A stretch of DNA of 64,000 nucleotides from an uncultured beta proteobacterium. Lineage in GTDB: Bacteria > Pseudomonadota > Gammaproteobacteria > Burkholderiales > Burkholderiaceae_A. Positions 18,068-46,424 of the stretch are shown in pieces. The notes under the pieces were generated by a model. The model did no database searches. It worked only from the letters and a program-made list of their open reading frames with translations, and was not told where the DNA came from. Each line of letters opens with the position of its first letter. The stretch's first letter is position 1. The stretch spans positions 124,001 through 188,000 of the forward strand of contig CACIGF010000001.1 of the NCBI GenBank assembly GCA_902586195.1, in the 5' to 3' direction. Both the position numbers and the translations under genes were made by a program.

Positions 18068-19249
18068 TTGAGGATTTTAATTCTAAGGAAGCTAGCAAAG
18101 TTTTTTTCACTATTTTTAGTGAAGGACTCTTTTATCTACACCTTGTTAAAAAGACTAGTATATTTTCGTCTTGCAGCGGAGAGAGCTTCATTTAATCAAT
18201 TTCAGTCTCTTGTATACACGGGAACAAGATTTTATTTTTTTCGATATAGGGATATAGTTATTGCAATCGATTCAGGTCCATTGAATGACACGCGTGGAAT
18301 TGGAAGGGTTGCTAAAAATCTATTTTCAGAATTAGATAGAGAGTTAACAAATGACTCTTTCGGAATTAATTTACAGCAATTATTTTTAATTGATGAGTCA
18401 ACAGTTGATATCTATTTATACCCCTCTATACAGTGGGCAGATGAACAAAAACTTACGAAAGCAGCTTTGATTGTATTGGATGTCCTTCCCGTAAGCCTAG
18501 AACATTTATTTCCCGAATCTCGCATTCGGGAGTGGCAAACCAAATATAAGGATTTTGCCCTACAAGCAAAAATTGTTATTACTATAAGTGAATGGAGTGC
18601 CTCGGAGATTATAGAAAGAATTGGTATTCAAAAAGAGCGGTTGCATGTAATTCCGTTAGGAATTGAAAAGAAAAATGAAGTCAATATTAAAAAAAATATT
18701 AAGATTATGAATGATAAATACTTTATATTCATTGGAAGTAATGACTATCATAAAAATCTTGATATTGTTATTAGCGCTTTATGCGATCAATCCCTGTTAG
18801 AGTATCAATTGGCAGTAGTAGGAGACAATTTTACTAATGCACAGAAAAATAATTGGAAAAGAATTCTTGCCAACAGAGTCTTTTTCTATGGTCATTTAGA
18901 TGATAACGAAACCGTTCAGTTGCTTTCGAGGGCAAAAGCTCTTCTGCTACCCAGCTTTAACGAAGGTTTTGGCTTGCCACCTTTCGAAGCAGCTATGCAA
19001 AATGTTCCTTCTATTTGTAGTGATAGGCCAGCTATGAATCAGGTGTTAAGAGAAGCTGCTTTGTTTGCTGATCCAACTAACCAAGACGAATGGATTTCTG
19101 CGATGAACATGGTTGTTAATCGAGAAAAGAGTGTTTTTAAAAAACTAGAAAAAGCCAAAAACTTAGCTCAAAATCATGAATGGAAGGACTTTCTACAATC
19201 GCTTCTCGCCATCTTGAAGTCATCAATCGCATCAAATGATGGCGTTTGA
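18068..19249 (+). CDS. GT4-family glycosyltransferase
   Basis: The 393-residue GT-B glycosyltransferase is preceded by a hydrophobic/basic N-terminal segment of about 60 residues. Donor-domain motifs are YFIFIGSNDYHKNLDIVI, the strand VFFYGHLDDNETVQLLSRA, and the E-x7-E region LPSFNEGFGLPPFEAAMQ. The acceptor-domain start, IAIDSGPLNDTRGIGRVAKN, is of the type found in O-antigen mannosyl- and rhamnosyltransferases. The start is a TTG 34 bases after nadC, and translation may begin further in. It is on the same strand as nadA-nadC, but its role belongs with the polysaccharide locus to the right. Its end overlaps nadB, on the other strand, by 18 bases. Confidence 0.85.
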   Translation: MRILILRKLAKFFSLFLVKDSFIYTLLKRLVYFRLAAERASFNQFQSLVYTGTRFYFFRYRDIVIAIDSGPLNDTRGIGRVAKNLFSELDRELTNDSFGINLQQLFLIDESTVDIYLYPSIQWADEQKLTKAALIVLDVLPVSLEHLFPESRIREWQTKYKDFALQAKIVITISEWSASEIIERIGIQKERLHVIPLGIEKKNEVNIKKNIKIMNDKYFIFIGSNDYHKNLDIVISALCDQSLLEYQLAVVGDNFTNAQKNNWKRILANRVFFYGHLDDNETVQLLSRAKALLLPSFNEGFGLPPFEAAMQNVPSICSDRPAMNQVLREAALFADPTNQDEWISAMNMVVNREKSVFKKLEKAKNLAQNHEWKDFLQSLLAILKSSIASNDGV

Positions 19250-20833
19250 TCTAATAACGGTAGGTAACGCGTTAGCTAGTTTATTTTGATGGTCTTTGTT
19301 GAAATGTAGTCCCCTACTCTCTTTTCGTTTTAAAGCAGATTTAGTGATCAACTCGGCACAAATCACGAGATTTCTTACTTCTAAAAGGTCTTTGTTAGGC
19401 CGGTATTGCTCAGATAACTCCCGTACTTCTTCACTGAGTAGTCTTATTCTTTTTAACGCTTTGTTCAATCTACTTGTTGATCTGACAATTCCCACATACG
19501 ATGACATTATGGTGCGTAGCTCATCCCAGCTATTAAAAATTTCTATAACGTCAGCTTCTCCGTGAATAGGTTTTGAGTCTTCATATTCTCTGATTTGTTG
19601 GTTGTGAGTGAATTTTGACCTAACTATTGATTCGCTTGCTGCCAATCCAGTTACAACACACTCCAACAAAGAGTTACTGGCAAGTCTGTTAGCTCCGTGA
19701 AGACCAGTACAAGCCGTTTCTCCAATGGCGTAGAGGTTTTCCATATTTGTTTGACCGTTTATCTTTGTTAGAACTCCTCCACAAGAGTAGTGGGCTGCTG
19801 GTATTACTGGAATCCTATCTTTGGTTATATCAATGCCCAGTCGTTTGCATTTACCGTGAATAGTCGGAAAATGCTCAGTTATGTAGTCTTTGTCGAGTAA
19901 CGTCGCATTAAGATATACATGTTCAATACCATGTTTTTTCATTTCAAAATCAATCGACCTTGCTACAATATCTCGAGGAGCCAACTCTTTTTTCGGGTCA
20001 TATTTGGCCATAAAACGTTCGCCATCTCTGTGTTCTAAAGTTGCCCCAGCTCCTCGCAAGGCTTCTGAGATAAGAAAAGAGCGTTCTCCAGCATGAAATA
20101 GACATGTTGGATGAAACTGCATAAATTCAAGATTTGCTACCTTGCATCCACATCTCCACGCTAAGGCGATTCCATCTCCTGTGGCAGTACTTGGGTTTGA
20201 TGTGTATTGATACACCTTGCCCATACCGCCTGTAGCTAAAACGACATGAGATGCAGGTATTGTACTTACTTCGTTTGAAACAGTATTTAAAGCGTATACG
20301 CCATAAATATTGTTGCTATGACTTAGTTTGGTAAGGTGTTGATTTTCAATCAAATCAATTACGAATGTATTTTTGAGAATGGTAATATTTGGATGTTGGA
20401 TGGCTTTTTGGATAAGAACGTCTAAGATAGCACGTCCTGTAGCGTCTCCAGCATGAGCAATCCTAGGCACACTATGTCCTCCTTCAAGAACTAAGTGGAG
20501 TTGATTAAGTTTTTTGTCCTGACTAAAAACAACCCCGTGATTTATGAGCCACTCCGTTGCTTTATATCCAGACCTTGCAATGAATTTAAGGACATCTTGA
20601 TCTACCAGCCCATCCCCAGCTCTTATTGTGTCTTGCACGTGAGTTTCAATACTCTTTTCATCCTTAGTGAGATGCACAATACCTCCCTGTGCCCAAGCTG
20701 TTGCAGAAATAGTTGGATCGTCTTTGGTGAGAAGCATTACTTTTTTAAATCGTGCCACTTCTAAGGCGACCGTTAGGCCTGATAGCCCGCAGCCAACAAT
20801 CAAAACTGGATTTGGAGAGGATTCATCTACCAT
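19232..20833 (-). CDS. nadB: L-aspartate oxidase NadB
   Basis: NadB oxidises L-aspartate to iminoaspartate with FAD, feeding NadA. The 533-residue protein has the FAD motif VLIVGCGLSGLTVALEVA at the N-terminus, ATAWAQGGIV, EGGHSVPRIAHAGDATGRAI, the active-site region EFMQFHPTCLFH, and RFMAKYDP with PRDIVARSID, plus the final AIGETACTGLHGANRLASNS. These separate it from succinate dehydrogenase flavoprotein, as does the lack of a neighbouring iron-sulfur subunit gene. It lies on the opposite strand from nadA-nadC and overlaps the downstream end of the glycosyltransferase gene. Its ATG overlaps the end of the upstream priming transferase by 7 bases. Confidence 0.97.
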   Translation of the reverse strand: MVDESSPNPVLIVGCGLSGLTVALEVARFKKVMLLTKDDPTISATAWAQGGIVHLTKDEKSIETHVQDTIRAGDGLVDQDVLKFIARSGYKATEWLINHGVVFSQDKKLNQLHLVLEGGHSVPRIAHAGDATGRAILDVLIQKAIQHPNITILKNTFVIDLIENQHLTKLSHSNNIYGVYALNTVSNEVSTIPASHVVLATGGMGKVYQYTSNPSTATGDGIALAWRCGCKVANLEFMQFHPTCLFHAGERSFLISEALRGAGATLEHRDGERFMAKYDPKKELAPRDIVARSIDFEMKKHGIEHVYLNATLLDKDYITEHFPTIHGKCKRLGIDITKDRIPVIPAAHYSCGGVLTKINGQTNMENLYAIGETACTGLHGANRLASNSLLECVVTGLAASESIVRSKFTHNQQIREYEDSKPIHGEADVIEIFNSWDELRTIMSSYVGIVRSTSRLNKALKRIRLLSEEVRELSEQYRPNKDLLEVRNLVICAELITKSALKRKESRGLHFNKDHQNKLANALPTVIRSNAII

Positions 20834-22245
20834 GCTTGTTTACTAAAAAATACTTTTAGTATTGTTGTGAGGATAATTCTTAAATCAAACCAAATAGACC
20901 AATTTTCTATGTAAAAAAGATCGTGTTGAACCCTGCGTCTAATATCTTCCACATTATTAATTTGTCCTCTGAGGTCATTTACCTGTGCCCATCCTGTAAT
21001 ACCAGGTTTGACTTTATAGCGCCTGGCATATCCCTTAACTTGTTTTTTAAATGTTTCCTCATGATCAAGGGCATGCGGTCTAGGGCCAACTATACTCATA
21101 CTTCCCTGCAAAACATTAATAATTTGAGGTAACTCGTCTAAGGAACTTCTACGTAGAAGTTTTCCAAATTTTGTAAATCTCTTATCATTCTGTTCTGCTT
21201 GTCTTGTTTTATTATTGCCATTTCCCATAAAAACCATCGTTCTGAACTTATATATGACAAAAACCTTACCATCCCAACCTAATCTTTTTTGCTTAAAGAT
21301 AATAGGACTACCGGAAGAAACCAAAATTAACAAGCTTATAAAAATCATTAATGGTATTGAAAGTAAAAAGAAAAGCGACCCCAAAATAATATCCTCTGCT
21401 CTTTTTAGAACTAGATTTACACCAACCATTTTATTAACGTTTAAGTCAATAACAGGAAATCCTAAAAATTCTGTTACAGAGTGATTCAATAAGGATAAAT
21501 CAAATACATCTGGGATGAGTCTAACAGAAACGTTTTTGAGTGCACAAATGTTCATAATTTCTTCTACATTACTACTTGCTTTAAGTGGAAGAGCTAACCA
21601 AACTTCACAGATATCTTTGTTGTCTAGGGCTATTGTTAACTCATCGGTTCCACCAATAATTTTTTTGGAATTTATCTCTTTTCCCCAAAGAGACTGATCA
21701 TTATCGAATAAACTCAAAACTTGATATCCGCTTTCTGGACTCCTCCGAATCTGTTCAATGAGAGCTTTACCTAATCCTCCTGCTCCAAAAACAACAATAT
21801 GTTTTTTGTTAATTCCTTTTTTTCGTAATTGTCGTACCACACTATAAATAAAAGCTCTAATTGTTAAAATGAAAAATAAACTCAACAAAAGCCATAAGAA
21901 AAAAGGAAGAGGGCGTAATAAAAATTGTACGCCTAATATCAACCAGACTGCCGTAACTGCCATCGCGGAAAGAAAATAGGATAAAACCAATCTGCTGAAT
22001 TGGTCTGAGTATGGTCGACCTCGCCAGCTCCTATAAAGCTGGCCCTCCTTAAAAATAATGAAACAAAATAAAATTTTTATAAGCACGAGGAGAGGCAAGT
22101 ATGTTGTTCCAACGACTGGAATGTCAAAAAAATAAAAGATAATGTATGCGCTAAACACAACGGATACAGCGTCTATTACCCTACTCGTAATTTCTACGGT
22201 TCCAGTATATTCTTTTGTAAGAAATCGTGAAGTTTGATTTAACAA
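20827..22245 (-). CDS. Undecaprenyl-phosphate sugar-1-phosphate transferase, WcaJ/PHPT type
   Basis: The enzyme starts glycan assembly by moving a sugar phosphate (glucose or galactose in the family) to undecaprenyl phosphate. The 472-residue protein has four N-terminal membrane helices within residues 25-140, a nucleotide-binding-like middle domain opening with VVFGAGGLGKALIEQI, a further membrane hairpin near 285-310, and the catalytic bacterial-transferase domain. That domain carries FKQKRLGWDGKVFVIYKFRT, RRSSLDELPQIINV, GSMSIVGPRPHA and VKPGITGWAQVNDLRG. It lies two bases from the upstream glycosyltransferase gene and overlaps nadB by 7 bases. The sugar is not decided by sequence. Confidence 0.92.
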   Translation of the reverse strand: MLNQTSRFLTKEYTGTVEITSRVIDAVSVVFSAYIIFYFFDIPVVGTTYLPLLVLIKILFCFIIFKEGQLYRSWRGRPYSDQFSRLVLSYFLSAMAVTAVWLILGVQFLLRPLPFFLWLLLSLFFILTIRAFIYSVVRQLRKKGINKKHIVVFGAGGLGKALIEQIRRSPESGYQVLSLFDNDQSLWGKEINSKKIIGGTDELTIALDNKDICEVWLALPLKASSNVEEIMNICALKNVSVRLIPDVFDLSLLNHSVTEFLGFPVIDLNVNKMVGVNLVLKRAEDIILGSLFFLLSIPLMIFISLLILVSSGSPIIFKQKRLGWDGKVFVIYKFRTMVFMGNGNNKTRQAEQNDKRFTKFGKLLRRSSLDELPQIINVLQGSMSIVGPRPHALDHEETFKKQVKGYARRYKVKPGITGWAQVNDLRGQINNVEDIRRRVQHDLFYIENWSIWFDLRIILTTILKVFFSKQAW

Positions 22246-22246: not shown

Positions 22247-23368
22247 TTATGAAGTTAGATTGTCTATTTGATTTAACATTTTATCTCTAAAATTTTCAAC
22301 AGAGAATTTTTTTGCATTTTTTACACAATCAGCTCTATTAAATTTAAGTTTAGAAAACTCTATTATTTTTTTAATGAGTTCATCCTCAGACTGTTTACGG
22401 AAAAAGACTCCTGTGGGGTTATCGTTTGATTGTGTATCTATTACAGTTTCGAGAGCTCCTCCTTCGCCAAATGCAATAACTGGAATCCCGCAGGCTTGCG
22501 CTTCAACAGATGAAATCCCAAAGTCCTCTTTTGAAGCTTGAATAAAACCCTTTGCTCCTCTTAAGATATCAAATTTTTTTTGATCGGTAACCCTCCCAAT
22601 TAACATAATATTTTTTTTTGCCATCATCCTTAATCTTGCTAATTCCGGCCCACTTCCAATGATTATCAGGTTTTTTTCCGGCAATTTGTTAAACGCCCTG
22701 ATTATAAGATCTACTCGTTTATAGGTTACAAGTCTGCAAATTGAGACAAAAGCACCATGACTTTCATAATTACCTTCCTTAGTGACCTCTACAGGAGGGT
22801 AGATCACTTCAGAATCTCTTGCCCAGTATTTTTTAATTCGATCTTTTACAAACCTACTGTTTGCAATGATCTTATCCGGCCTCTGACCTGCAATCATATC
22901 CCATTCTCTAAGTTTTCGAATTTGCATCCTAACGAGGGGCTGAGCAAATTTAACAAAATGCTCACGAGAGAGGTATTCTTTTTCCATGTCCCATGCCCAA
23001 CGCATTGGGGTGTGTACGTAAGCTAAGTGTTTTGTTGTGGTTGCTTTCCTCTCCAATCCATGACAAAAAGCCCATGAGCTACTTATAACTAAATCATATT
23101 TTTTTAAGTCAAATTTTTCGATTTCCGCGGGCATAAGGCTGGCAAAAAATTTGTAGTTCTTTTTTATAAACGGAATTTTTTGTAATGAGCTACTGTAAAC
23201 ATTGGTTATGCTGTCACATTTAAAAATTGGGTTTTTAGAATCCTTGACAATACAAAACAAGTCCAATTGTTCGAATAATCTAAGAATATTTTCTAGAACT
23301 ACTTCTGCACCTGCATAAGCTACTAGCCAGTCGTGTGCAACAGCTACTCTACAAATTTTTTTGTGCAT
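22247..23368 (-). CDS. GT4 glycosyltransferase, WbaZ/WbpZ-like
   Basis: The 373-residue GT-B enzyme starts VAVAHDWLVAYAGAEVVLEN, the acceptor-domain opening of mannosyl-/D-rhamnosyltransferases of the WbaZ and WbpZ type. It also has AYVHTPMRWAWDMEKEYL in the linker region, ICRLVTYKRVDLIIRAFN as donor-site start, and FIQASKEDFGISSVEAQACG as the E-x7-E motif. The gene overlaps the Rmd-like reductase by 20 bases. With gmd and rmd beside it, transfer of a GDP-linked deoxyhexose or mannose is the likeliest reaction. The linkage and acceptor are unknown. Confidence 0.88.
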   Translation of the reverse strand: MHKKICRVAVAHDWLVAYAGAEVVLENILRLFEQLDLFCIVKDSKNPIFKCDSITNVYSSSLQKIPFIKKNYKFFASLMPAEIEKFDLKKYDLVISSSWAFCHGLERKATTTKHLAYVHTPMRWAWDMEKEYLSREHFVKFAQPLVRMQIRKLREWDMIAGQRPDKIIANSRFVKDRIKKYWARDSEVIYPPVEVTKEGNYESHGAFVSICRLVTYKRVDLIIRAFNKLPEKNLIIIGSGPELARLRMMAKKNIMLIGRVTDQKKFDILRGAKGFIQASKEDFGISSVEAQACGIPVIAFGEGGALETVIDTQSNDNPTGVFFRKQSEDELIKKIIEFSKLKFNRADCVKNAKKFSVENFRDKMLNQIDNLTS

Positions 23369-24233
23369 TAATTTGCCATTTGTACTCGGTTATCATATCG
23401 TCTAATATCTTTCGGATTGGAGGCTGGTGAAAACAGATACCATTCTGATTTAAAGTGTTCAAGGTTCTCGTCGGATCACCCACAATGATACTTTGTTCGT
23501 TAGGTCTCATCAATTCAACATTACTGATAATTTCCGGAAAATGTTTCGTTTTTTCAGAAACAAAACGTAGCATTTCACTAGCTTTAAATGCCTTTCCTGA
23601 GCAAATATTGTAATTTCCTGGAGGCGCATCTAATTCAGCAAGACTGCGAATAAGTTTGACTGTCCAGCGCACATCGTTAAACTCTCTTTGTGTTTCGACT
23701 CCACCCAAAAAAATAACGGGCTCTTTCTGTATATGTGCTTTTAAAATTTTAGGTATAAAAAAGGTTTCTTTTTGTCCTATTCCAATACTATTAAAGAGAC
23801 GTAGTGAGACAATTTTATTTCTCGTGGCTGTATTGTTGCAAATAAATTCCATAGCAAGCTTGCTAGCAGCATAATGACTCTTCGGTCCCAGCGGAAACGT
23901 TTCTGAAATAGGGCTTTTTGCATCTGCGTAAACATGACAGGTACTTGCCAAAAAAATTTTTTTCTTTTGGTAATTTTTTTCAACAGCGAGAACCACATTT
24001 TGGCTACCAATTACGTTTGTCTCGTACAATAAAGAAGGGGAATGATCGACTACATGACTGAGTCCCGCTAAATGAATAACAGTGTCAAAATTCAAATTCT
24101 CTATTTCTTTTTGTAAAGACTCATAGTTTGAGATATCACTTTTCGATAAGAGAACTTTGTGACCACAGTTTTCTAAATCCCTCACGAGATGTTTGCCTAT
24201 AAAACCATGTCCACCAGTTAAAAGTACATTCAT
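23349..24233 (-). CDS. NAD-dependent epimerase/reductase, probable GDP-4-keto-6-deoxymannose reductase (Rmd-like)
   Basis: The 294-residue extended short-chain dehydrogenase has the nucleotide motif LLTGGHGFIGKHLV at the N-terminus, LASTCHVYADA in the Ser/Thr active-site strand, and the catalytic YAASK. It is directly downstream of gmd (4 bases). That places it as the reductase turning the Gmd product into GDP-D-rhamnose, as Rmd does in Pseudomonas A-band synthesis. A GDP-6-deoxy-talose or GDP-fucose branch enzyme cannot be excluded. Confidence 0.75.
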   Translation of the reverse strand: MNVLLTGGHGFIGKHLVRDLENCGHKVLLSKSDISNYESLQKEIENLNFDTVIHLAGLSHVVDHSPSLLYETNVIGSQNVVLAVEKNYQKKKIFLASTCHVYADAKSPISETFPLGPKSHYAASKLAMEFICNNTATRNKIVSLRLFNSIGIGQKETFFIPKILKAHIQKEPVIFLGGVETQREFNDVRWTVKLIRSLAELDAPPGNYNICSGKAFKASEMLRFVSEKTKHFPEIISNVELMRPNEQSIIVGDPTRTLNTLNQNGICFHQPPIRKILDDMITEYKWQINAQKNL

Positions 24234-24237: not shown

Positions 24238-25263
24238 TTAAGTTCCGATTGACTTTAAGTCGTATTCAACCATAATTTCCGCAAGTTTTTCTAGAGAAGT
24301 AGTGGCCTTCCAACTCAACTCATTATTTGCTTTTTTTGGGTTACCCAAAAGAGTATCTACTTCTGCCGGTCTATAATGTTTTTTATCAATGCGGATAACA
24401 GAGTTACCGGTTTTAATGTCGATTCCAATTTCATTTTCTTTGTCTCCCTCAAATTTTATCTCCATGTCTGCAGTCCTGAATGCAAGCACAGCAAAATTTC
24501 TTATTGTTTCATTTTTGCCCGTAGCTAAAACATAATTGTCTGGTTTTTCTGCTTGGAGAATTTGCCACATCCCTTTTACATAATCTTTTGCATAACCCCA
24601 GTCTCTCCTTGCATTCAGGTTTCCAAGATACAGAGTTTTCTGGAGACCATATTTAATCTTAGCAACAGCTAATGTAATTTTTTTTGTAACAAATTCTTCG
24701 CCTCTTAAAGGACTTTCGTGATTAAACAATATGCCGCATGCCGCAAAGATTCCGTAGCTTTCTCGGTAATTTATAGTAATCCAATGAGCGTAAAGTTTGG
24801 AGGCAGCATACGGGCTTCGAGGGTAAAAAGGGGTGTTTTCGTCTTGACTTGGATTTTGAATTTTTCCATACATTTCCGAGGTACTTGCCTGGTAGAACCG
24901 GATATTTTTGTCAATAAGTTTTATAGCTTCTAGAAAATAAAGTGGTCCCAGACTGTTTATATTTGTGGTAATAACCGGGTTTTCAAAGCTTGATGCCACA
25001 AAACTCTGAGCTGCAAGATTGTATATTTCGTTTGGCCGGTATTTTCTCACAACACTACAGACATTCATAGGATCAGTTATATCAAGGTCAACTAATACTA
25101 AATTACTTTCTTCAAAAATTTCTAATTCTATTAACCTCCAGAAATTAACTGTACTTGAGCGACGATAACAACCTATAACGCGATACTTCTTTTCTAAAAG
25201 AAACATTGCAAGGTAGGCTCCGTCTTGCCCCGTAATTCCAGTAATGAGTGCAGTCTTATTCAA
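24238..25263 (-). CDS. gmd: GDP-mannose 4,6-dehydratase Gmd
   Basis: Gmd removes water from GDP-mannose, making GDP-4-keto-6-deoxymannose, the parent of GDP-D-rhamnose, fucose and perosamine. The protein has ALITGITGQDGAYLA at the N-terminus, the active-site strand QASTSEMYGKIQNPSQ, YPRSPYAASKLYAHWI with the catalytic Tyr and Lys, and NARRDWGYAKDYV. I set the start at the TTG 25263, which has AGGA eight bases upstream and places the Rossmann motif as in relatives (341 residues). The ATG at 25299 adds twelve atypical residues. No GDP-mannose pyrophosphorylase is in the window. Confidence 0.94.
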   Translation of the reverse strand: MNKTALITGITGQDGAYLAMFLLEKKYRVIGCYRRSSTVNFWRLIELEIFEESNLVLVDLDITDPMNVCSVVRKYRPNEIYNLAAQSFVASSFENPVITTNINSLGPLYFLEAIKLIDKNIRFYQASTSEMYGKIQNPSQDENTPFYPRSPYAASKLYAHWITINYRESYGIFAACGILFNHESPLRGEEFVTKKITLAVAKIKYGLQKTLYLGNLNARRDWGYAKDYVKGMWQILQAEKPDNYVLATGKNETIRNFAVLAFRTADMEIKFEGDKENEIGIDIKTGNSVIRIDKKHYRPAEVDTLLGNPKKANNELSWKATTSLEKLAEIMVEYDLKSIGT

Positions 25264-25280
25264 TTCTTTTTTCCTAAATG

Positions 25281-25309
25281 TTGAGTAATTAGTTTTCAAT
25301 AGCTACTAT
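25281..25309 (+). promoter_or_regulatory. Possible promoter of the wzm-wzt operon
   Basis: TTGAGT at 25281-25286, a 17-base spacer and TACTAT at 25304-25309 (each 4 of 6 to consensus) point at the wzm ATG at 25321. The predicted start is only about five bases before that ATG, and no Shine-Dalgarno is visible, so a very short leader is implied. Confidence 0.4.
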
Positions 25310-38095: not shown

Positions 38096-38132
38096 GTAAG
38101 TACTGAGTCGCTTCATATTAAGAAAAACAGCT

Positions 38133-38218: not shown

Positions 38219-39940
38219 ATGCCTGAAAAAAAAAGAACAAAAGGAAAACGAGCTGGTACCAGTAAAAAGCACAAATCTCAAGGGCTCAATAAAATCGGGT
38301 TAAAAACATCTACTACCAGGCAGAAAGGTGAACAAAAAATTGATCTGCCGGTTTTTTTAAAAGAATTCGATGAGCTGCTAAACGCTGGCAACTTTTTGAA
38401 GCCTCAAGAGATGCTAAATAGTCTTAGGGGCTTAAAAAAATGGCAGAGGCTTAACCTCCAATCAGTTATAGAGTTTAAGAAAGGTAATACTAGTCTTAGC
38501 GAGGACTTAATGCGGCAGGCATTGCGTGAGCCTGATGTTAAACCCAGCATAAACAGGAATTTAGCCGGCATGCTAATCAACCAGGGTAGAATGCGGGAAG
38601 CTTTACCATACGCGGAATTGGCATATAAAGAAGACTCCAAAGATTTAAAAGCTGCGCAGCTGTTTCTTAATTGCTTACTAGATCTTGGAAAGGCTGATAT
38701 TGTTCTTCAGGAAACCGAAAAATTACTAGAATCCTTTCCCGATGATAAAGTGGTTCTAGTTAGTAGGGCATCCGCTCTAAGAAGTACCATGAACAAGGAA
38801 GCGGCATCTAAAGAACTGGATGTCTTAATAAAAAAATTCCCTGAAGAACCGGTCGTGCATCGAATCAAGGCTGATCTCCTGGGTGACACAAGTACAAGAG
38901 AGGCATTGCCACATTATGAAAAAGCTCTAGAGATTTCCATTAATGAAAAAGGGAAAGCCGACCCTGCTATTCAATGGAATATGAGTTTGCATCTTCTTAG
39001 GGCTAGGGAGCTTAAAAGAGGGTGGGAATGCTGGGAACAGGGATTTCATCCTATAGTGGGTACTATGGGAAGAAATCTTCCAAAAAGAATTACATCTATG
39101 CCTCGTGCTGATAATGGGCAGGAAATTGACAGAAATAAATGGACTATTATTTGCGCAGAGCAAGGAATTGGTGATCAAATATTATTTATGCATAGTATGA
39201 ATGAGACGATAGAGGAACTCGGGAAAGTACTTTACATAACAGAAAAACGATTATATCCAATAATTAAAAGAAGTTTTCCAAATATGGAGGTGGGGTCTCA
39301 AGGGGTTACATATGATTGGACTCGTAACGCACTGCAGAAAAACGGATATATTCCTCTAGGAAGTATCCCTCGAAGACATAGAAATAGCCTTGATAGTTAT
39401 AAAAACAATAGAATCCCATATTTAAAGGCCAATAAGAATCTATTCGAAAAATATCGAGCAAAGCTCCTTGAGTTAGCTAAGGGTAGGCCTATCATTGGCA
39501 TTTCCTGGAAAGGGGGGTATTGGCAAATCCAAAGAAAGACAAAAGAATTAGAACTGAGGAATTGGGAGCCTATATTTAAACGTAAAGCTCTATATGTAAA
39601 TTTACAATATGGGGACATAAAACAAGAAATTCAATATTTAAAAGATAATCGGCAAGACTTAATTTTTTTTCCAGAGTTGGATTTTAAAGTTCATATAGAC
39701 GATTGGGTTGCAATTGCGGGAGCGTGCGATGGGATAATTTCTGTTTCGACGGCATTAGTTCACTTTGCTGGAGCAATAGGACAAAAAGTCGCTGTTGTTA
39801 TGCCAGGAGAACAAGGTCCATGGCACCTCGGGTTAACCGATACGGAGTCAATGGCATATAAAAATGTAAAAATTTTCCGCCCAACACAGAAAGAATCTTT
39901 GCCAAAATTAATTGAAAGAGTAAGCAATTTAATCACATGA
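38219..39940 (+). CDS. TPR-repeat protein with GT9-like glycosyltransferase domain
   Basis: The 573-residue protein starts with a Lys/Arg-rich tail of about 40 residues, then helical TPR-like repeats (about 60-270). It ends in a domain resembling the GT9-type fold often fused to TPRs. The signs are IICAEQGIGDQILFMHSM, IIGISWKGGYWQIQRKTKE, and late AIAGACDGIISVSTALVHFAGAIGQKVAVVMP. Related TPR-transferase proteins are suspected or known protein glycosyltransferases (for example of flagellin-like substrates). Its place between the giant surface protein and the secretion genes suggests that it modifies or handles that protein before export. The stop overlaps the next gene by four bases (ATGA). 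Confidence 0.7.
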   Translation: MPEKKRTKGKRAGTSKKHKSQGLNKIGLKTSTTRQKGEQKIDLPVFLKEFDELLNAGNFLKPQEMLNSLRGLKKWQRLNLQSVIEFKKGNTSLSEDLMRQALREPDVKPSINRNLAGMLINQGRMREALPYAELAYKEDSKDLKAAQLFLNCLLDLGKADIVLQETEKLLESFPDDKVVLVSRASALRSTMNKEAASKELDVLIKKFPEEPVVHRIKADLLGDTSTREALPHYEKALEISINEKGKADPAIQWNMSLHLLRARELKRGWECWEQGFHPIVGTMGRNLPKRITSMPRADNGQEIDRNKWTIICAEQGIGDQILFMHSMNETIEELGKVLYITEKRLYPIIKRSFPNMEVGSQGVTYDWTRNALQKNGYIPLGSIPRRHRNSLDSYKNNRIPYLKANKNLFEKYRAKLLELAKGRPIIGISWKGGYWQIQRKTKELELRNWEPIFKRKALYVNLQYGDIKQEIQYLKDNRQDLIFFPELDFKVHIDDWVAIAGACDGIISVSTALVHFAGAIGQKVAVVMPGEQGPWHLGLTDTESMAYKNVKIFRPTQKESLPKLIERVSNLIT

Positions 39941-40524
39941 AGTATAAAGATAAATTTTTATCAGTCAATGCAGAGGCTATTCCAATCTTTGATACCGATC
40001 GACCAAGCCAAGCTCTAATTGATCTTTTTAATCCGGAGAATAACCCATTAGCGGCTCAAAGTCAGGGAGTTCTTTTACGTGTTAATGGAATACTCCATGA
40101 ACTTTCTGAACCTGTTGCGATAGGGATAAATGATGTATCACTACACTGTATTATGCCGATCGTTATCTACGGAAGAAAACAGAGTCAAAAGGATGAATTT
40201 TACAGTGTATCAAATAAGCTAGTTATAAAACAAAGTGAATTAGCTCGTGACTTATTAGTGTCTGTGAAACCCAAATTTTTTGAAAACTCGCTTAATTTGC
40301 TTGATAGCATCTTTCAAAGTAATAACTTTGTTTACTTGATATTTAACATCTCGGACGAAAAATCAATCTGTACAGCTATTGAGAAAATATCACAATCAAG
40401 GGGAGCTATAACTATACATAACCCACAATATAGAAATACAACCAATTTAATGAAATTCTGTCTTGAAAAGAATATTCACCTTATAGAAAATATTGATGGT
40501 TCAGCTGATTTATTTAGATTTTAA
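39937..40524 (+). CDS. Unknown protein encoded between the TPR/GT9-like gene and the secretion genes
   Basis: I do not recognise this 195-residue protein. It has no signal peptide or membrane helix, is mixed alpha/beta in pattern, and ends with SRGAITIHNPQYRNTTNLM and IHLIENIDGSADLFRF. Its ATG overlaps the TPR gene stop by four bases, and it ends 11 bases before the first ABC gene, so it belongs to the same operon. A cytoplasmic helper of secretion or modification (chaperone, regulator) is a guess from position only. Confidence 0.8.
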   Translation: MKYKDKFLSVNAEAIPIFDTDRPSQALIDLFNPENNPLAAQSQGVLLRVNGILHELSEPVAIGINDVSLHCIMPIVIYGRKQSQKDEFYSVSNKLVIKQSELARDLLVSVKPKFFENSLNLLDSIFQSNNFVYLIFNISDEKSICTAIEKISQSRGAITIHNPQYRNTTNLMKFCLEKNIHLIENIDGSADLFRF

Positions 40525-40535: not shown

Positions 40536-42227
40536 ATGGAAAATTCTGATAAGCCGAACATATTTCGTGAGACCTTAAAGTCCCACAAAAGTTATATATA
40601 TACAGCGATATTTTTATCCATCTTTGTAGCATATTTGCCTGTTGCACCCATCGTATACATGCGTACAGTATTTGGCCCGGTTATAAATAGCCAAAGTTTT
40701 TCTTTCCTTATATGGTTGGGCGCATTATTAGTTTTGGCGATTATAGTAAATGGAGTCTTAGAGTGGATAAGGGAACGTATAATCCTGTCCGGTACGATTT
40801 CATTTATTTCTTCTTTAGAGGAAAGAATATTTAGCTCCACGTTTGAACAACGAGCTGATAAGTGGAATGAAGGCTCAAAAGCATTTTCTAATATGAGAAT
40901 TTTAAGAAATTTTATGGTGTCACCAATCTCTGGTGCCATCTTAGACGCACCTTTTTCAATACTGTTACTATTAGTAATATTTTTTATACACCCACTGATG
41001 GGAGCTTTTTCAATTCTTGGTCTTTTAATTGCCTTTGTGATAGGTTTATTAATCGAGAAAAAAGTTCAACCAGAGCAAGAAAATGCGGCTGAATTACAAA
41101 ATTCCGCTAGGCGAGAACTTAACGTTCTGCACAATAATGCACTTTATTGTAATTCAATGGGCAACCTTCCAAATTTGTTTAACAAGTGGTTTGTAAACCA
41201 AAAACAGTTTCTTGTCTACCAGGCAAACGCTACCACATTACAATCCTTAGGATCAAGCGTAAGCCAGGTCGTAATGATGGTTCAAGGTTCAATGTTATTG
41301 GGCGTTGGAACATTTCTGACACTTATTGGAATGATGTCTCCGAGCATGGCTGGAAATTTAATAATTGCTAAATTTATTGGGGCTTTGGCAATCCGCCCTA
41401 CAATGATGATTGTAATGGCATGGAGCCAAATTATTTCCGTGAGATTTGCAATTGCGGATTTGAAAAAATTTTTACAAGAAGCAGTAATATCACGACAATC
41501 TGGTATAAAATTACCGGCCCCAAAGGGAAACCTTGTAGTTAGTGATGTTTCTTTTCAACATGGAGAAAATGGAAAAAAAATCCTAGATAATATTTCGTTC
41601 AATCTTAAACCAGGTAATGTATGTGCCGTTCTCGGAGAATCCGGTGCCGGTAAATCGACACTTGCAAAAATTCTGGTAGGTTACAATTACCCTTCAAAAG
41701 GTAGTGTAAGACTAGACGGAGTTTCCATAGGTTCATGGAATAAAAAAGAATTATGTGATTACATTGGTTATTTACCGCAAGACCTCCAATTATTTGGTGG
41801 CGAACTCATACCAAATATCACGAGATTTAAGCAAGTAAACGAAAAAGAGCTCGAAATTGTTTGCGTAAAATTTAATTTAGAAGATATATTCGAACGCTAC
41901 AAAAAAGGAGAACCCCCAACGCTAAGCGATGACCTATTCGATATACCTGGAGGTTTAAAACAAAGGATTGCTTTGGCCAGAGCTTTCTATAATTCGCCAA
42001 ATTATTTAGTGCTTGATGAGCCAACGAGCAGTCTTGATGCAAAGTTTGAAAATAAATTTTTAGAGATAATCAAACATAGCAAAGACCGAGGGGCAACAAT
42101 TATAATAAATACACATAATAAACGAATATTAACAATGGCAGACTATATTTTAGCTATAAAAGATGGACGTCAAAAGCTCTTTGATTCTAAAGAAAATATA
42201 AAGAAAAAAATGAAATTATCATTATGA
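40536..42227 (+). CDS. Type I secretion ABC protein 1 (PrtD family, atypical signature motif)
   Basis: The 563-residue fused exporter has an N-terminal membrane domain (about residues 1-310, several long hydrophobic helices) and a C-terminal ATPase. It has Walker A GESGAGKST, Q-loop YLPQDLQLFGG, Walker B YLVLDEPTSSLD, and the switch His in INTHNKRI. The ABC signature reads IPGGLKQR instead of LSGGQ, while the second exporter next door keeps LSGGE. The protein lacks the C39 peptidase or CLD domain. It sits 11 bases after the unknown gene and 9 bases before the second ABC gene. It is probably one half of a heterodimer that exports the giant surface protein. Confidence 0.88.
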   Translation: MENSDKPNIFRETLKSHKSYIYTAIFLSIFVAYLPVAPIVYMRTVFGPVINSQSFSFLIWLGALLVLAIIVNGVLEWIRERIILSGTISFISSLEERIFSSTFEQRADKWNEGSKAFSNMRILRNFMVSPISGAILDAPFSILLLLVIFFIHPLMGAFSILGLLIAFVIGLLIEKKVQPEQENAAELQNSARRELNVLHNNALYCNSMGNLPNLFNKWFVNQKQFLVYQANATTLQSLGSSVSQVVMMVQGSMLLGVGTFLTLIGMMSPSMAGNLIIAKFIGALAIRPTMMIVMAWSQIISVRFAIADLKKFLQEAVISRQSGIKLPAPKGNLVVSDVSFQHGENGKKILDNISFNLKPGNVCAVLGESGAGKSTLAKILVGYNYPSKGSVRLDGVSIGSWNKKELCDYIGYLPQDLQLFGGELIPNITRFKQVNEKELEIVCVKFNLEDIFERYKKGEPPTLSDDLFDIPGGLKQRIALARAFYNSPNYLVLDEPTSSLDAKFENKFLEIIKHSKDRGATIIINTHNKRILTMADYILAIKDGRQKLFDSKENIKKKMKLSL

Positions 42228-42236: not shown

Positions 42237-43991
42237 ATGACTGATTTAAAGCAACAAATTTTACGAATTAAAAATGCTTCATTAACCAAATTATTGTTGG
42301 TACACAAGATAGATATAATTTGGATATTTATCGCGAGCTCAGTATCTAATTTACTTATGTTAACACCGATGCTTTATATGCTTCAAATTTTTGATAGGAT
42401 TTTTATAAGTCAAAGTGTATTGACCCTATTAACTATATCTAGCATCGTCATATTCTTCTATATCATCTCATCTTTAAGTTCATACATCCGATCAAAGATC
42501 ATTATTGCTTTAGGTTCAAGACTAGAAAACAATATAAACGAACATTTATTTCATGTAAGTTTTTCTGAAAGATTAAAAAAAGAAGTAAAAAATCCAGTCT
42601 CATATCTGGATGACCTCGCAGTCTTTAGGCAATGGTTGACCGGAGCAGCCGTTTTTGCCATTTTCGATCTCCCGTGGGTTCCCCTATACGTGTTAATAAT
42701 GTTTGTAATGCATCCTTTATTAGGATTTGCTTCTTTAGTTTTAATTTTGATTTTAATTGTTTTTGGAATATATTTCTCAAAAATACTGGGAAATCAGGAT
42801 GAAATTTTAAGGCAAGAAGAGTACGAAACTAATGAATTTTTATATGGAAAATTACGCAACTCTGAAATACTTTCGATTTATGCATTAGCCTCAAATTTCA
42901 AAGAAAGCTGGAGGAGGAATAAACGGAAGTTCTACATAAGTTTAAACAAAAGCCAAAAAAAAACTGATGTAATTCAAAATATAATGAAGCAATACCGATT
43001 TTTTTCAAATTCTTTGGCGCTGACTATTGGTGCATACTTAGTTATATCGGGTGAACTTACTTTGGGGAGCATGATTGCCGCATCTCTTCTAATGGCCCGT
43101 ACAACGCAACCTGTGGATGGGGCTGTTTCCACTCTAAGTCGAATCACCATAGTTAGAGAGGCTTTTTGGCGACTGGAGGAGATGTTAAAAGTCCCCTTTG
43201 AAAGAAATATGTCCTCGGTAGATGAAAAACAAGTCTCCAACAATGCCATTACACAGAACACCGTAGAAAATATATCACTCTCAAATGTTGAAGTATCGTA
43301 TAACGATGGCAATTTAATTATTTTAAAAAATCTGAGCTTTGAATTACATAAAGGGGAAGTAATCTCAGTTGTTGGTAATTCTGGCTCAGGGAAGACAACT
43401 ATGCTGAAACTACTAACTGGACTGGTAGATTATCGCGGTTCTGTATTGTATGAAAACGTAGAATTAAAAACATTTTCCCGCGAGGATTCCGAAAGATGTA
43501 TTGGGTATCTTCCACAGGATATATTAATGATTCCCGGAACCGTAGCTGAGAATATCTCGAGCTTACGATTACCAGACTCGAAGAGAATTGTTGAAGTTGC
43601 AAAACTAGTTGGTATACATGATTTTATTTTAAAATTTCCTGAAGGATACGATACCAAGCTTTTCGGTGGTCGACAAAACCTCTCTGGTGGTGAGAGACAG
43701 AGAATAGGGCTTGCTAGAGCTATCTACAATGATCCAGCATCTATCTTACTTGATGAACCAAATGCTGCGTTGGATCATTCTGGAGAATTAGCATTAAACA
43801 ATGTAATAAACTATTGTAAAAATAGAGGTAAAATTATAGTGATAGTTACGCATAGAAGGTCTGTACTTAAGTGTTCCGATAGAGTAATAGATTTGTCAAG
43901 CAATAGTGATAGCTTAAAAATTATTGATAGAGAAACCTATTTAGGGAGTTTTAAATCAAAAGATGATTTTGATAAAAGATTTACATTTTAA
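42237..43991 (+). CDS. Type I secretion ABC protein 2 (PrtD family)
   Basis: The 584-residue exporter has an N-terminal membrane domain with SNLLMLTPMLYMLQIFDRI, typical of PrtD/RsaD/HasD proteins, and a canonical ATPase. It has Walker A GNSGSGKTT, Q-loop YLPQDILMIPGTVAENI, signature NLSGGERQR, Walker B SILLDEPNAALD, and switch His VTHRRS. This is the better-conserved member of the pair and could work alone as in Caulobacter RsaD or Erwinia PrtD. It is followed by the adaptor gene after 22 bases. Confidence 0.93.
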   Translation: MTDLKQQILRIKNASLTKLLLVHKIDIIWIFIASSVSNLLMLTPMLYMLQIFDRIFISQSVLTLLTISSIVIFFYIISSLSSYIRSKIIIALGSRLENNINEHLFHVSFSERLKKEVKNPVSYLDDLAVFRQWLTGAAVFAIFDLPWVPLYVLIMFVMHPLLGFASLVLILILIVFGIYFSKILGNQDEILRQEEYETNEFLYGKLRNSEILSIYALASNFKESWRRNKRKFYISLNKSQKKTDVIQNIMKQYRFFSNSLALTIGAYLVISGELTLGSMIAASLLMARTTQPVDGAVSTLSRITIVREAFWRLEEMLKVPFERNMSSVDEKQVSNNAITQNTVENISLSNVEVSYNDGNLIILKNLSFELHKGEVISVVGNSGSGKTTMLKLLTGLVDYRGSVLYENVELKTFSREDSERCIGYLPQDILMIPGTVAENISSLRLPDSKRIVEVAKLVGIHDFILKFPEGYDTKLFGGRQNLSGGERQRIGLARAIYNDPASILLDEPNAALDHSGELALNNVINYCKNRGKIIVIVTHRRSVLKCSDRVIDLSSNSDSLKIIDRETYLGSFKSKDDFDKRFTF

Positions 43992-44013
43992 AAACTAGAA
44001 AACAAAGAATAAA

Positions 44014-45096
44014 ATGACTCAAAATAAACTTGAAAAAGAGTTTGAAAAGATTTTACAAACAAAACAAAGCAGAATTTTCGCTTTCTGGACATTAGGAGTA
44101 TTTTTTGGAGGATTTTTATTATGGGCCGCTTTTGTTCCTCTAGATGAGGGTGTACCCACAATGGGTAAAGTTGTTGTAGACACTAAACGGAAAGGAGTCC
44201 AGCATTCTACAGGAGGTACAATTAAACAGATCTTTGTGAAAGAAGGTGATTTCGTTGTGAAGGACCAAACACTTATTAAGTTAGGAGACGCCAGGGCCCA
44301 GAGTGAAGTCCTCATTGAGCAGAATAATATTAAGAGTCTGGAAGAGAATGTTAATTTGCAACGAATTTCTTTAGTTAAGGTGTCAGATTTAATCAAAAAT
44401 AGCAACCAACAAATTAAACTAGTAGAGGAAGAGTTGGTAGGAATTCGTAGTCTTGTCGAAGAGGGTTATGCTCCAAAAGTTCAACAGATAGGCCTTGAAA
44501 AGGAATTAAACCAATTATTATCAAAGAAAAATGAACTAGGTAGTACCCGAGAACAATCATTGCAGACAATTGAGGAGTTGAAATTTAAGTTAGAGGCAGC
44601 GAAAGAGCGGTTACTGATTGCTGAAAGAAACTTAACACAAAAAGAAATAAAGGCTACTGTGTCTGGACAGATTCTCGACCTTCAAAAGCAGGCTATAGGT
44701 TCAGTTATCCAGCCTGCGGAGAAAATTATGGACATTGTTCCGAGAGACGAGATGCTCTTAATTGAGACAGAAATAATGCCAAATCTTATCGATCGTGTAT
44801 CTGTAGGGGATGCTGTAGATATAAGGTTTTCTAACTTTTCCATGACTCCTTTGTTGGTTGTCCCGGGTATTGTCATTTCCATTTCTACAGATGTATTATT
44901 TCAAGATAAAACAAATTCACCTTATTACTTAGCCAGAGTTAAAGTTACCGATGATGGTATTACTACGCTTGGAAAGAGAAAAATGAGACCTGGTATGGAA
45001 GTGGGTGTAATAGTCAAGACTGGTTCAAGGACACTTTTAAAATATCTCTTACATCCTCTTACTCGGAGAGTAGCTTTTTCTATGAAAGAGGAATAA
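44014..45096 (+). CDS. HlyD/PrtE-family type I secretion adaptor
   Basis: The 360-residue membrane-fusion protein has a short cytoplasmic N-terminus, one membrane helix (about 24-42) and the lipoyl-half motif VDTKRKGVQHSTGGTIKQIFVKEGDFV. It then has a coiled-coil hairpin (about 95-205) and a C-terminal beta domain ending RMRPGMEVGVIVKTGSRTLLKYLLHPL-like, the standard end of the family. It bridges the ABC dimer to the TolC-like channel. It is rather short compared with the roughly 430-residue HlyD relatives, mainly in the coiled coil. It ends two bases before the outer-membrane gene. Confidence 0.93.
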   Translation: MTQNKLEKEFEKILQTKQSRIFAFWTLGVFFGGFLLWAAFVPLDEGVPTMGKVVVDTKRKGVQHSTGGTIKQIFVKEGDFVVKDQTLIKLGDARAQSEVLIEQNNIKSLEENVNLQRISLVKVSDLIKNSNQQIKLVEEELVGIRSLVEEGYAPKVQQIGLEKELNQLLSKKNELGSTREQSLQTIEELKFKLEAAKERLLIAERNLTQKEIKATVSGQILDLQKQAIGSVIQPAEKIMDIVPRDEMLLIETEIMPNLIDRVSVGDAVDIRFSNFSMTPLLVVPGIVISISTDVLFQDKTNSPYYLARVKVTDDGITTLGKRKMRPGMEVGVIVKTGSRTLLKYLLHPLTRRVAFSMKEE

Positions 45097-45098
45097 AT

Positions 45099-46424
45099 TT
45101 GAAAAATTTTTGGAAACTAAAACTGGTTTCATTATTAATTTGTGTGAACCCTTCTCTAGCTGACATGGATCTCCTACAGTGTATCGATAAAGCACTAAGT
45201 GAAAATTCTGAGATAAAAAAAGCTAGAGCAGAATTTCAAGCCTTCAGGGAGGTAGAAGTGCAAAGTCGGGCAAATCTCTTGCCATCAATAGCGTTGTCCG
45301 TTTCCAGATCACGGGTTGCTCAGGACAGATCCGATGGGTCTGGCCTAAAATTACATCAAAATTATATTATGGAAAGCGACGCTATTTCCTTGCGCCAACC
45401 TGTTTATCGACCTAAGTTAATAAGGGACTTTGAAAAAACAAAGAAAGAAGTATCTTCCGAAAAACTATTGTTACAAAAAAAAGAAGATATCATTTCCATG
45501 AAGGTGATCGAAGCGTATTTTAGGCTATTAAGAGCTTATGAAGAGGAATCACTATTAGAAAAAAGAATGAAACTATTAGCTGAACAAAAAAAAGCAGCGG
45601 TTAAATCCATGGAGGCTGGAAGAGGTACGGTTACAGAATTAGCAGAAATAAATGCTGCTAATGACAGGGCGTCAGTAGATCTTATTAAAATAAGACAGAG
45701 CGTCAAATTAGAACTGAATGAACTTGAGTTCTATACTGGAGAGAAAATTCAAAAGGTTAAGAAGCTTGATGGAAAAATGAATAATATTGATATATTTGAG
45801 AAGCACACCGTTAAATATTGGGAGGAAAATGCAGTTCTCAATAATTATGAGTTAAAAAGTAGGCGAGAAATGATTTCGGCTGCCGAGATAGCTTTATCGT
45901 CTGAAAAACTGACTCGGTACCCTACCATAGATTTAAATATCCAAATTTCCAGGGGATCTAGTGAAAGTACTTTTTTTGTTGATTCAGAAACAAAAACCCA
46001 TTCCTTAGGACTCTCCTTAAACCTTCCGATTTATCAAGGAGGAGGCTTAAGCTCGAGAATACGGCAATCCGCCTCTAAATTAGATGTGCAAAATGAGAGC
46101 CTGAAATTTGAAGAGGAAGACTTACGAAAAAGAGTTCAGAAAATTTATTTTGGTATGATTGAGAGCATCAAGCTCAGAGAAGCGTTAAAGACTGCTGTGC
46201 GATCTTCCCAAATTGAATTACAATCAACGAAGAAAAGTAGCTCTGCTGGGATTCGGAAACAGTTAGATATTTTGATATCACAACAAAAGGCTCTCGGTAT
46301 TGAAAGAGAACTTAACAATGCGCAGTTAGATATCATATTGTATTGGTTGAATCTAAATATGTTTACTAGTAATCTCAAACGAGAAACTATTGAGACGATT
46401 AATAGATTTTTAATTCCACGCTAA
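45099..46424 (+). CDS. TolC/PrtF-family outer-membrane channel
   Basis: The 441-residue protein has a signal peptide (cleavage probably after NPSLA, about residue 22) and two OEP repeats of helical and strand segments, for example LLPSIALSVSRSR and LTRYPTIDLNIQISRG. It supplies the outer-membrane exit duct of the type I system. The start is a TTG two bases after the adaptor stop. Its end overlaps the convergent flagellar flhB-like gene by four bases, so two unrelated operons meet end to end. Confidence 0.9.
   Translation: MKNFWKLKLVSLLICVNPSLADMDLLQCIDKALSENSEIKKARAEFQAFREVEVQSRANLLPSIALSVSRSRVAQDRSDGSGLKLHQNYIMESDAISLRQPVYRPKLIRDFEKTKKEVSSEKLLLQKKEDIISMKVIEAYFRLLRAYEEESLLEKRMKLLAEQKKAAVKSMEAGRGTVTELAEINAANDRASVDLIKIRQSVKLELNELEFYTGEKIQKVKKLDGKMNNIDIFEKHTVKYWEENAVLNNYELKSRREMISAAEIALSSEKLTRYPTIDLNIQISRGSSESTFFVDSETKTHSLGLSLNLPIYQGGGLSSRIRQSASKLDVQNESLKFEEEDLRKRVQKIYFGMIESIKLREALKTAVRSSQIELQSTKKSSSAGIRKQLDILISQQKALGIERELNNAQLDIILYWLNLNMFTSNLKRETIETINRFLIPR

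Follow-up and report, generated by a model that had tools for sequence, protein, structure and literature searches.

The locus at positions 18068 to 46424 of the window (the whole stretch of 64,000 nucleotides of DNA that was analysed) of a small aquatic bacterium raises the question of whether a giant repetitive protein, here called REPEAT, forms a surface layer (S-layer) together with the secretion and polysaccharide genes that surround it, as an earlier note had proposed by analogy to RsaA of Caulobacter.

Organization of the locus

All open reading frames named in the earlier note are present in the window at the same coordinates and in the same order, which is a glycan locus, the repeat protein, a TPR/glycosyltransferase (TPR-GT), an orphan protein (ORPH), two ABC transporters, an HlyD-type adaptor and a TolC-type channel. 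The cell had also been regarded as probably gammaproteobacterial, which is corrected by the label of the congener AH-287-N17 as a beta proteobacterium. The glycan locus comprises the following genes:

18068–19249, + strand: GT4 glycosyltransferase, first gene of the glycan locus (position conserved in congeners)
20827–22245, − strand: WcaJ/WbaP-type undecaprenyl-phosphate sugar transferase, a WcaJ-type initiating transferase (TIGR03023, 469 bits; cut-off 410.75)
22247–23368, − strand: GT4-like glycosyltransferase (from sequence; orthologues in congeners)
23349–24233, − strand: NDP-sugar SDR, possibly Rmd
24238–25299, − strand: Gmd, GDP-mannose 4,6-dehydratase (TIGR01472, 459 bits; cut-off 415)
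25321–26097, + strand: Wzm-type polysaccharide ABC permease (NF050109, E=1.9e-19)
26094–27308, + strand: Wzt-type ATPase with a C-terminal extension (NCBIfam comparison)
27327–28487, + strand: methyltransferase-like protein (motif by inspection; kept in congeners)
28489–32172, + strand: triGT, a large protein with three glycosyltransferase domains (Pfam Glycos_transf_1, three stretches)

The methyltransferase-like protein had no match in NCBIfam at 1e-10. The reductase at 23349–24233, previously described as Rmd-like, is indeed an SDR, but it can be called Rmd only tentatively, as LegB/GalE were the best matches and lay far below the cut-offs. The gene nadB also sits within the glycan cluster.

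The giant protein and its constant N-terminus

REPEAT and its sequence signals are arranged as follows:

32182–32209, + strand: REPEAT promoter, TTGATA-16-TACACT with TG before the −10 (sequence, conserved site)
32386–32401, + strand: stem-loop ending the leader of about 210 nt (base changes in G002 and G007 preserve the pairing)
32426–38095, + strand: REPEAT, S-layer-like protein of 1889 aa (single open frame, repetitive)
32426–32803, + strand: residues 1–126, DUF4214 region and putative anchor, of which the first ~100 residues remain in place when the cassette is swapped (PF13946 in 6/6 members)
32897–33172, + strand: residues ~158–249, RsaA-homologous anchor/body junction (N-terminal profile A10 against PDB)
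37733–38092, + strand: residues ~1770–1889, conserved C-terminal end and putative type I secretion signal (alignment with congeners and a Roseomonas DUF4214 protein)
38132–38169, + strand: intrinsic terminator 3′ of REPEAT (hairpin plus T-run)

The description of a repetitive 1889-residue protein without a signal peptide was borne out, with one open frame, repeats, and no signal peptide recognizable by inspection of the N-terminus (MSAELIHQMYIAYYQRP...). The protein contains no Cys and 26% Ser/Thr, and its pI is 4.05. In all six complete loci, the promoter site lies 4–10 nt past the triGT stop, and a hairpin with a T-run follows REPEAT; the terminator sequences differ, and in each locus 0/100 shuffles were as good. 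Codon adaptation could not serve as a proxy for REPEAT expression, because in the genus the genes for ribosomal proteins score no differently from average genes, which renders the test void.

Residues 1–100 are 84–99% identical between the window and the other complete loci, and a low-confidence predicted model places helices at residues 1–126. When profile A10 was compared with PDB, the two best of 177635 entries were both RsaA (6p5t, E=3.4e-4; 5n97, E=2.6e-3), in a match that spans only about 90 residues, and the Caulobacter analogy thereby gained a sequence link at the junction. With the same profile, residues 1–157 did not match the RsaA anchor domain in PDB, nor did full-length REPEAT and its profile A1 match any PDB entry, and the C-terminal profile gave nothing meaningful there. 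An AlphaFold model of residues 1–700 had a mean pLDDT of 52, and Foldseek found no significant fold match for it (RsaA at rank 10, E=7). A classical RTX protein was ruled out by the missing repeat array, as we found a single GGxGxD motif and no HemolysinCabind match; other calcium sites are possible.

REPEAT could instead be a giant adhesin or a loose glycoprotein sheath that is exported by the type I pathway and retained at the surface in non-crystalline form. The very long, beta-rich body, rich in Ser, Thr, Gly and Ala, would suit such a protein, the adhesins EtpA and Ag43 are among the fold matches that fell short of significance, and in Sulfitobacter, plasmid-borne DUF4214 proteins are found near YadA-like adhesin or exopolysaccharide genes. 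However, giant adhesins usually vary in repeat number, whereas the length of REPEAT is nearly constant in divergent congeners (1814–1922 aa at 42–81% identity), and in PDB the N-terminal profile matches RsaA best, with the large adhesion protein 9cse reaching only E=7.7. We consider an adhesin or sheath somewhat unlikely, and slightly favour an RsaA-like S-layer coat as the product of the locus.

A type I exporter with two ABC genes

Four genes in the downstream part of the locus encode a complete type I secretion set, in which a pair of ABC genes replaces the single gene:

40536–42227, + strand: ABC1, PrtD-type half-transporter with the degenerate signature motif PGGLKQ (sequence)
42237–43991, + strand: ABC2, PrtD-type half-transporter with the canonical LSGGERQ (sequence)
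44014–45096, + strand: HlyD-type periplasmic adaptor (TIGR01843, 226.5; NCBIfam cut-off 208.65)
45099–46424, + strand: outer-membrane channel of the TolC type, with which the exchanged cassette ends (OEP, 9e-46)

ABC1 and ABC2 are nearest to PrtD (TIGR01842, E=4e-117 and 9e-138, respectively), below its cut-off, and probably form a heterodimeric pump. The one review that was searched does not explicitly describe type I exporters with two ABC genes as a known subtype, although its silence does not prove that there is none.

Conservation and cassette exchange in the genus

In all eight genus genomes compared, which are MAGs, REPEAT, TPR-GT, ORPH, ABC1, ABC2, HlyD and TolC lie in this order between the gmd/wzm-wzt/glycosyltransferase locus and flagellar genes, within contig limits, and this conservation indicates a gene order beyond chance. 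REPEAT is absent in 18 genomes of sister genera, bar one match at the level of DUF4214.

Identities are distributed unevenly along the locus. Between G000 and G001, the glycan genes are 83–92% identical and the cassette 38–64%, and between G000 and G003 the cassette reaches 66–83%, with exchange breakpoints near 32700–32780 and 46400–46500. The alignments thus demonstrate that the REPEAT body, the glycosyltransferase, ORPH and the exporter are swapped between congeners as a single cassette, and that the anchor, the promoter and the glycan genes stay. In G002, the identity of the glycan genes to the window drops to 40–62%, while the N-terminal 100 residues of REPEAT are still conserved as in the other complete loci. 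This constancy of the N-terminus while the glycan genes diverge argues against a tight co-evolution with one O-chain structure.

A glycosyltransferase pair probably related to flagellin glycosylation

Two genes directly follow REPEAT:

38219–39940, + strand: FlmG-like TPR and glycosyltransferase protein, putative REPEAT O-glycosyltransferase (sequence comparison)
39937–40524, + strand: ORPH, 195 aa, putative TPR-GT partner, ATGA overlap (paralogue adjoins flagellins)

The first had been called TPR/GT9-like, and both the TPR and the glycosyltransferase parts of this description stand, with TPR found by Pfam in 9/9 members, but GT9 has to be replaced by the FlmG type, as Pfam GT9 was found at the C-terminus of only one of the nine members, and weakly (E=0.021). 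Relatives carry the annotation 'TPR-containing glycosyltransferase family proteins', and 19 of 40 loci of the family sampled in the phylum have a flagellin gene within about 10 kb. The class assignment is based on architecture and flagellin neighbourhood. FlmG is a cytoplasmic flagellin O-glycosyltransferase with an N-terminal TPR and a C-terminal glycosyltransferase part (PMC7591256), an architecture that TPR-GT shares, and its family is often found beside flagellins, including the paralogues in this genus; unlike FlmG, the copy described here has as its neighbours REPEAT, a probable surface protein exported by type I secretion, and the small partner ORPH.

For ORPH, no relatives were found in Pfam, PDB, plasmids or viruses, and its predicted structure was not usable (pLDDT 36). 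In four congeners and a genome of another family, a paralogous pair of TPR-GT and ORPH, or ORPH at a contig edge, lies amid flagellins, which are giant; the other genomes of the 399-genome phylum sample hold no relative of ORPH. The S-layer and flagellar copies of ORPH are separated with full support.

The resemblance to FlmG, together with the paralogous pair amid flagellins, suggests that REPEAT is probably O-glycosylated ahead of type I export. Alternatively, the pair might leave REPEAT unmodified and add sugar to the neighbouring polysaccharide or to flagellins, its position next to REPEAT being incidental. The adjoining glycan locus and the occurrence of TPR-GT relatives in polysaccharide clusters (L097) would agree with this, but in the exchange the pair stays linked to the exporter and the body of REPEAT and not to the glycan genes, and the four congeners hold a separate flagellin-side copy, with the fully supported split of the ORPH copies, so that we regard this alternative as unlikely.

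Similar loci on plasmids of other proteobacteria

Loci that combine DUF4214, exporter and glycan genes were found on plasmids of Pseudomonas, Rhizobium, Sulfitobacter and Roseomonas, and the arrangement thus recurs. Among the 12 plasmid loci inspected, eight have DUF4214 together with a type I secretion system and 11 have glycan genes, whereas only 3/20 chromosomal DUF4214 loci sampled contain a type I system, so that the general tie to the exporter is loose. As in the window, the plasmid loci encode an N-terminal domain (26–34% identical to that of REPEAT), a type I exporter and long glycosyltransferases, and those of Pseudomonas share gmd and wzm too; they differ by mostly shorter proteins (about 600–1260 aa) and one ABC transporter. 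No TPR-GT/ORPH pair was recognized in the plasmid loci checked, and the papers that were found give no description of their function. The earlier expectation that repeat protein, exporter and wzm/wzt remain together across relatives thus proved correct for the genus, and the composition recurs on these plasmids.

The lack of a signal peptide and of a known cell-wall anchor, together with the low-confidence structure prediction, could also mean that REPEAT has no role at the surface and is instead soluble, as a protein that is either secreted or kept in the cytoplasm. The dedicated type I exporter in the cassette, the RsaA homology, the strongly conserved N-terminal domain and the recurrent glycan neighbours speak against this, and we regard it as very improbable; REPEAT is, with high likelihood, a surface-retained protein.

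Discussion

RsaA of Caulobacter crescentus (PMC6978808) is likewise a large, acidic protein without a signal peptide, in which an N-terminal domain is followed by a long beta body, and its gene adjoins type I exporter and polysaccharide genes, with homology to REPEAT detectable at the junction. REPEAT is larger (1889 vs 1026 aa), its DUF4214 anchor, which takes the place of the O-antigen-binding N-terminal domain of RsaA, has no detectable homology to RsaA residues 1–249, and the locus differs in lacking an RTX array, whereas RsaA carries calcium-binding RTX repeats (PMC13274458), and in having two ABC genes, a dedicated FlmG-like glycosyltransferase with ORPH, and cassette exchange. The methanotroph S-layer proteins MEALZ_0971, EQU24_15540 and Metal_0880 (PMC11784148, PMC13274458) are distant RsaA relatives whose genes adjoin a full set of the three type I exporter genes; they have one ABC transporter, the homology is described in the lattice part, and in the accessible text of these reports a glycosyltransferase cassette is not reported. 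The S-layer protein NpdA of Betaproteobacteria (PMC10765051) also comes from related bacteria and is encoded beside a secretion system, but it is a 52-kDa protein of another class with a signal peptide and type II secretion, and an NpdA-type S-layer was rejected for the 1889-residue REPEAT with its type I exporter and without a signal peptide. As similar loci recur and the type I-exported S-layers of RsaA and the methanotrophs are known, calling the whole gene set an undescribed system was too strong. The earlier reading had overlooked the FlmG-type pair and its paralogue among the flagellar genes, what the presence of two ABC genes means for the exporter, that REPEAT is transcribed separately, and that the cassette is exchanged.

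We tentatively propose a modular S-layer, in which a constant DUF4214 anchor tied to polysaccharide would be combined with interchangeable lattice bodies, each with a heterodimeric type I exporter and an O-glycosyltransferase pair of its own, the latter recruited from the module that glycosylates flagellin. REPEAT would be expressed from its own conserved promoter and terminator, whose strength is presumed. In the cytoplasm, the FlmG-like TPR-GT, with ORPH as partner, would add O-linked sugars to the Ser/Thr-rich body, and the dedicated ABC1/ABC2-HlyD-TolC exporter, judging from family and linkage, would recognize the C-terminal end and export the protein in one step. Outside, the N-terminal DUF4214 domain would hold REPEAT at the surface, perhaps on the neighbouring polysaccharide, and the long beta-rich body would make up the outer layer, which would most likely be a lattice. 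A swap of the cassette would then change the exposed face and keep the attachment, as might be expected under phage or grazer pressure.

If this model is true, flagellin-type O-glycosylation would be linked to type I secretion, and the unfolded protein would already bear sugars when it crosses the envelope, which raises the question of how a narrow-channel PrtD-type exporter handles a glycosylated substrate. It likewise raises the question of what is bound by DUF4214, a domain that recurs beside wzm/wzt loci. A Gram-negative cell would be able to alter the exposed face of its S-layer while the attachment is retained.

Results

Gene content and order in the genus

The genes that the earlier note had named in a proposed S-layer-like superlocus (18068-46424) were all found at their positions, but the profile libraries gave the reductase called 'Rmd-like' no name to support Rmd. 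Three forward-strand genes are named as follows:

32426-38095, forward strand: repeat protein, S-layer-like, 1889 residues
38219-39940, forward strand: TPR-glycosyltransferase, an FlmG-like TPR protein with a glycosyltransferase-like C-terminus, first gene 3' of the repeat protein
39937-40524, forward strand: orphan protein, 195 residues

The repeat protein has no cysteine, a pI of 4.05, and 26% Ser+Thr, 14.5% Gly and 13.9% Ala, and Pfam recognizes only an N-terminal DUF4214 domain, present in all six complete congeners. Farther 3' are two PrtD-type ABC half-transporters (ABC1 and ABC2), an HlyD-type adaptor (above the curated cut-off) and a TolC-type channel, and on the 5' side are gmd and a WcaJ-type sugar transferase (both above cut-off), Wzm, Wzt, a methyltransferase-like protein and a three-domain glycosyltransferase. 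The gene nadB lies inside this glycan locus (19232-20833) with nadA-nadC immediately upstream, an arrangement common to all congeners whose contigs reach there.

The source genome (G000), a draft of 1.13 Mb that is 70.7% complete, was compared with seven others of its genus. Within contig limits the order glycan locus, repeat protein, TPR-glycosyltransferase, orphan protein, ABC1, ABC2, HlyD, TolC, flagellar genes has no exception; it is complete in G000, G001, G002 and G003, covered from the methyltransferase onward in G006, and partial or spread across contigs in G004, G005 and G007. A minus-strand protein of about 105 residues resembling part of FlhB lies between TolC and a fliK-like gene in G001, G002, G003, G005, G006 and G007 (e.g., L036:10689-11009). 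In 18 genomes of two sister genera, the repeat protein is absent apart from one DUF4214-level match, and relatives of Wzm, all of them weak, occur in three genomes. In one of these genera (g2), the flagellar block continues directly into other flagellar genes, which together with the absence argues that the island is a property of the window's genus.

Transcription of the repeat protein gene

A promoter-like site (TTGATA, 16 nt, TACACT, with TG preceding the -10) lies 4-10 nt past the stop codon of the large glycosyltransferase, an offset kept in the alignment of all six complete loci. Beyond it, a leader of about 210 nt ends in a small stem-loop that stays paired in G002 and G007 although its bases differ there. 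Immediately 3' of the gene, all complete loci share a hairpin and T-run, variable in sequence but constant in structure, and 0 of 100 shuffles per locus were equally good. With its own promoter and terminator, the repeat protein can be expressed separately from its exporter, and its expression is presumably high; codon usage cannot reveal expression level in this genus, and that test was uninformative.

Relationship to RsaA

Neither the single sequence nor a full-length profile of the repeat protein matched the PDB. A profile limited to the N-terminal 250 residues and drawing on six congeners plus two alphaproteobacterial DUF4214 proteins gave Caulobacter RsaA as its top two matches (6p5t, E=3.4e-4; 5n97, E=2.6e-3), with residues 158-249 aligned to where the lattice domain of RsaA begins. 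At the level of sequence profiles, this match shows homology to RsaA at the anchor/body junction. RsaA residues 1-249 bind O-antigen (PMC6978808); with the same profile, the helical residues 1-126 did not match the RsaA anchor domain. In a low-confidence structure model, helices extend through residue 126 and beta strands follow beyond 220, a predicted order of parts that is the same as in RsaA, but the fold match of the model was not significant. Type I exporter genes adjoin the repeat protein as they do the RsaA-related S-layers of methanotrophs (PMC11784148, PMC13274458).

Exchange of the cassette

Between G000 and G001, glycan genes are 83-92% and flgP and fleR 95-98% identical, and the repeat protein from residue 301 to its end is 38% and the genes from TPR-glycosyltransferase through TolC 45-64% identical. 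Against G003, cassette genes are 66-83% identical and glycan genes are more distant at 64-81%; G005 repeats this pattern (58-85% and 45-70%). At the DNA level, the switch points are at about 32700-32780, after about codon 100, and about 46400-46500, after TolC. As judged from these identities and breakpoints, the body of the repeat protein, the TPR-glycosyltransferase, the orphan protein and the exporter are shown to move jointly, and the first 100 residues, promoter and glycan genes stay. This joint movement is the best evidence that the TPR-glycosyltransferase pair and the exporter belong to the repeat protein. Residues 1-100 are 84-99% identical among complete loci even though the identity of glycan genes is as low as 40-62% in the comparison with G002, and the putative anchor would therefore recognize either a conserved portion of the glycan or another target.

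Walker A and B are retained in both ABC proteins. The signature motif is canonical or near-canonical in ABC2 (LSGGERQ in the window) and altered in ABC1 in each of the six congeners that have this gene (PGGLKQ, SNGMKQ, SGGMRQ and similar), which fits a heterodimer in which one of the sites is degenerate, as known from other ABC exporters; one review searched makes no mention of a paired arrangement of this kind for type I secretion.

DUF4214 loci elsewhere

The first 300 residues matched 16 plasmid records, nearly all annotated as DUF4214 proteins. Twelve loci from this biased sample were examined: type I exporter genes lie no farther than about 10 kb away at eight, glycosyltransferase or other glycan genes accompany 11, and five have Wzm- or Wzt-type genes. 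The Pseudomonas plasmids carry the row ABC-HlyD-TolC-gmd-long glycosyltransferase-DUF4214 protein-Wzm (Wzm match checked); three of them are closely related and represent about one or two events. In an even genome sample, a type I exporter was present at 3/20 DUF4214 loci and glycan genes at about 8 or 9/20; for comparison, ABC, HlyD and TolC occur all together at just one of 40 TPR-glycosyltransferase loci. At the chromosomal locus most like the repeat protein (L170, E=2e-21), an exporter occurs together with Wzm and Wzt. A 614-residue protein with three DUF4214 domains adjoins wzm-wzt in sister genus g3 (L154:8574-10418, G021), a hint that DUF4214 may be associated with exported glycans. G000 encodes two further DUF4214 proteins (L055:16624-18294, on G000:C16, and G000:C1:9203-9415), one of which combines an M10 peptidase with RTX repeats. 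Neither was seen to have a type I exporter nearby, and both may therefore use the cassette exporter.

A flagellar paralogue of the putative glycosylation pair

Across the phylum, 49 of 399 sampled genomes contain the family defined by the C-terminal half of the TPR-glycosyltransferase. Relatives carry the annotation tetratricopeptide repeat-containing glycosyltransferase family protein, and in 19 of 40 neighborhoods examined a flagellin match lies no farther than about 10 kb away. Caulobacter FlmG has the same TPR and glycosyltransferase build; its TPR part binds flagellins, which it O-glycosylates in the cytoplasm (PMC7591256). For the orphan protein, neither a known relative nor a usable structure model was found.

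In three congeners, a second pair of both genes lies between giant flagellins, and in a fourth (G006) the orphan gene is at flagellins at a contig edge. The giant flagellins, two or three per genome in the genus, have 1128-1893 residues (L047 2029-5415, 5649-9113 and 12366-18008, on G001:C29; likewise L048, L049 and L050), and those tested, three in G001, retain both the N- and the C-terminal flagellin domain intact. In another family, G158 has the pair near a gene bearing a flagellin C-terminus; there (L054:5040-7337, G158:C22, N-terminal end missing at the contig end), this domain forms one fusion protein with RTX repeats and an M10 serralysin-like metallopeptidase. The orphan protein tree separates S-layer and flagellar copies by a branch with support 100/100, with G158 on the flagellar side, and the split is weak in the TPR-glycosyltransferase tree (67/81). 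The most economical explanation is duplication of a flagellin glycosylation module followed by its recruitment to the repeat protein.

Discussion

The locus combines its genes in conserved order with a separate promoter and terminator for the repeat protein and an FlmG-like pair that has a flagellar paralogue. The repeat protein is probably glycosylated by the TPR-glycosyltransferase, and this O-glycosylation would precede export via the adjacent type I system. Retention at the cell surface is very likely; anchoring on the neighboring glycan is conceivable at somewhat below even odds, and the balance tips slightly toward the protein forming an RsaA-like S-layer.
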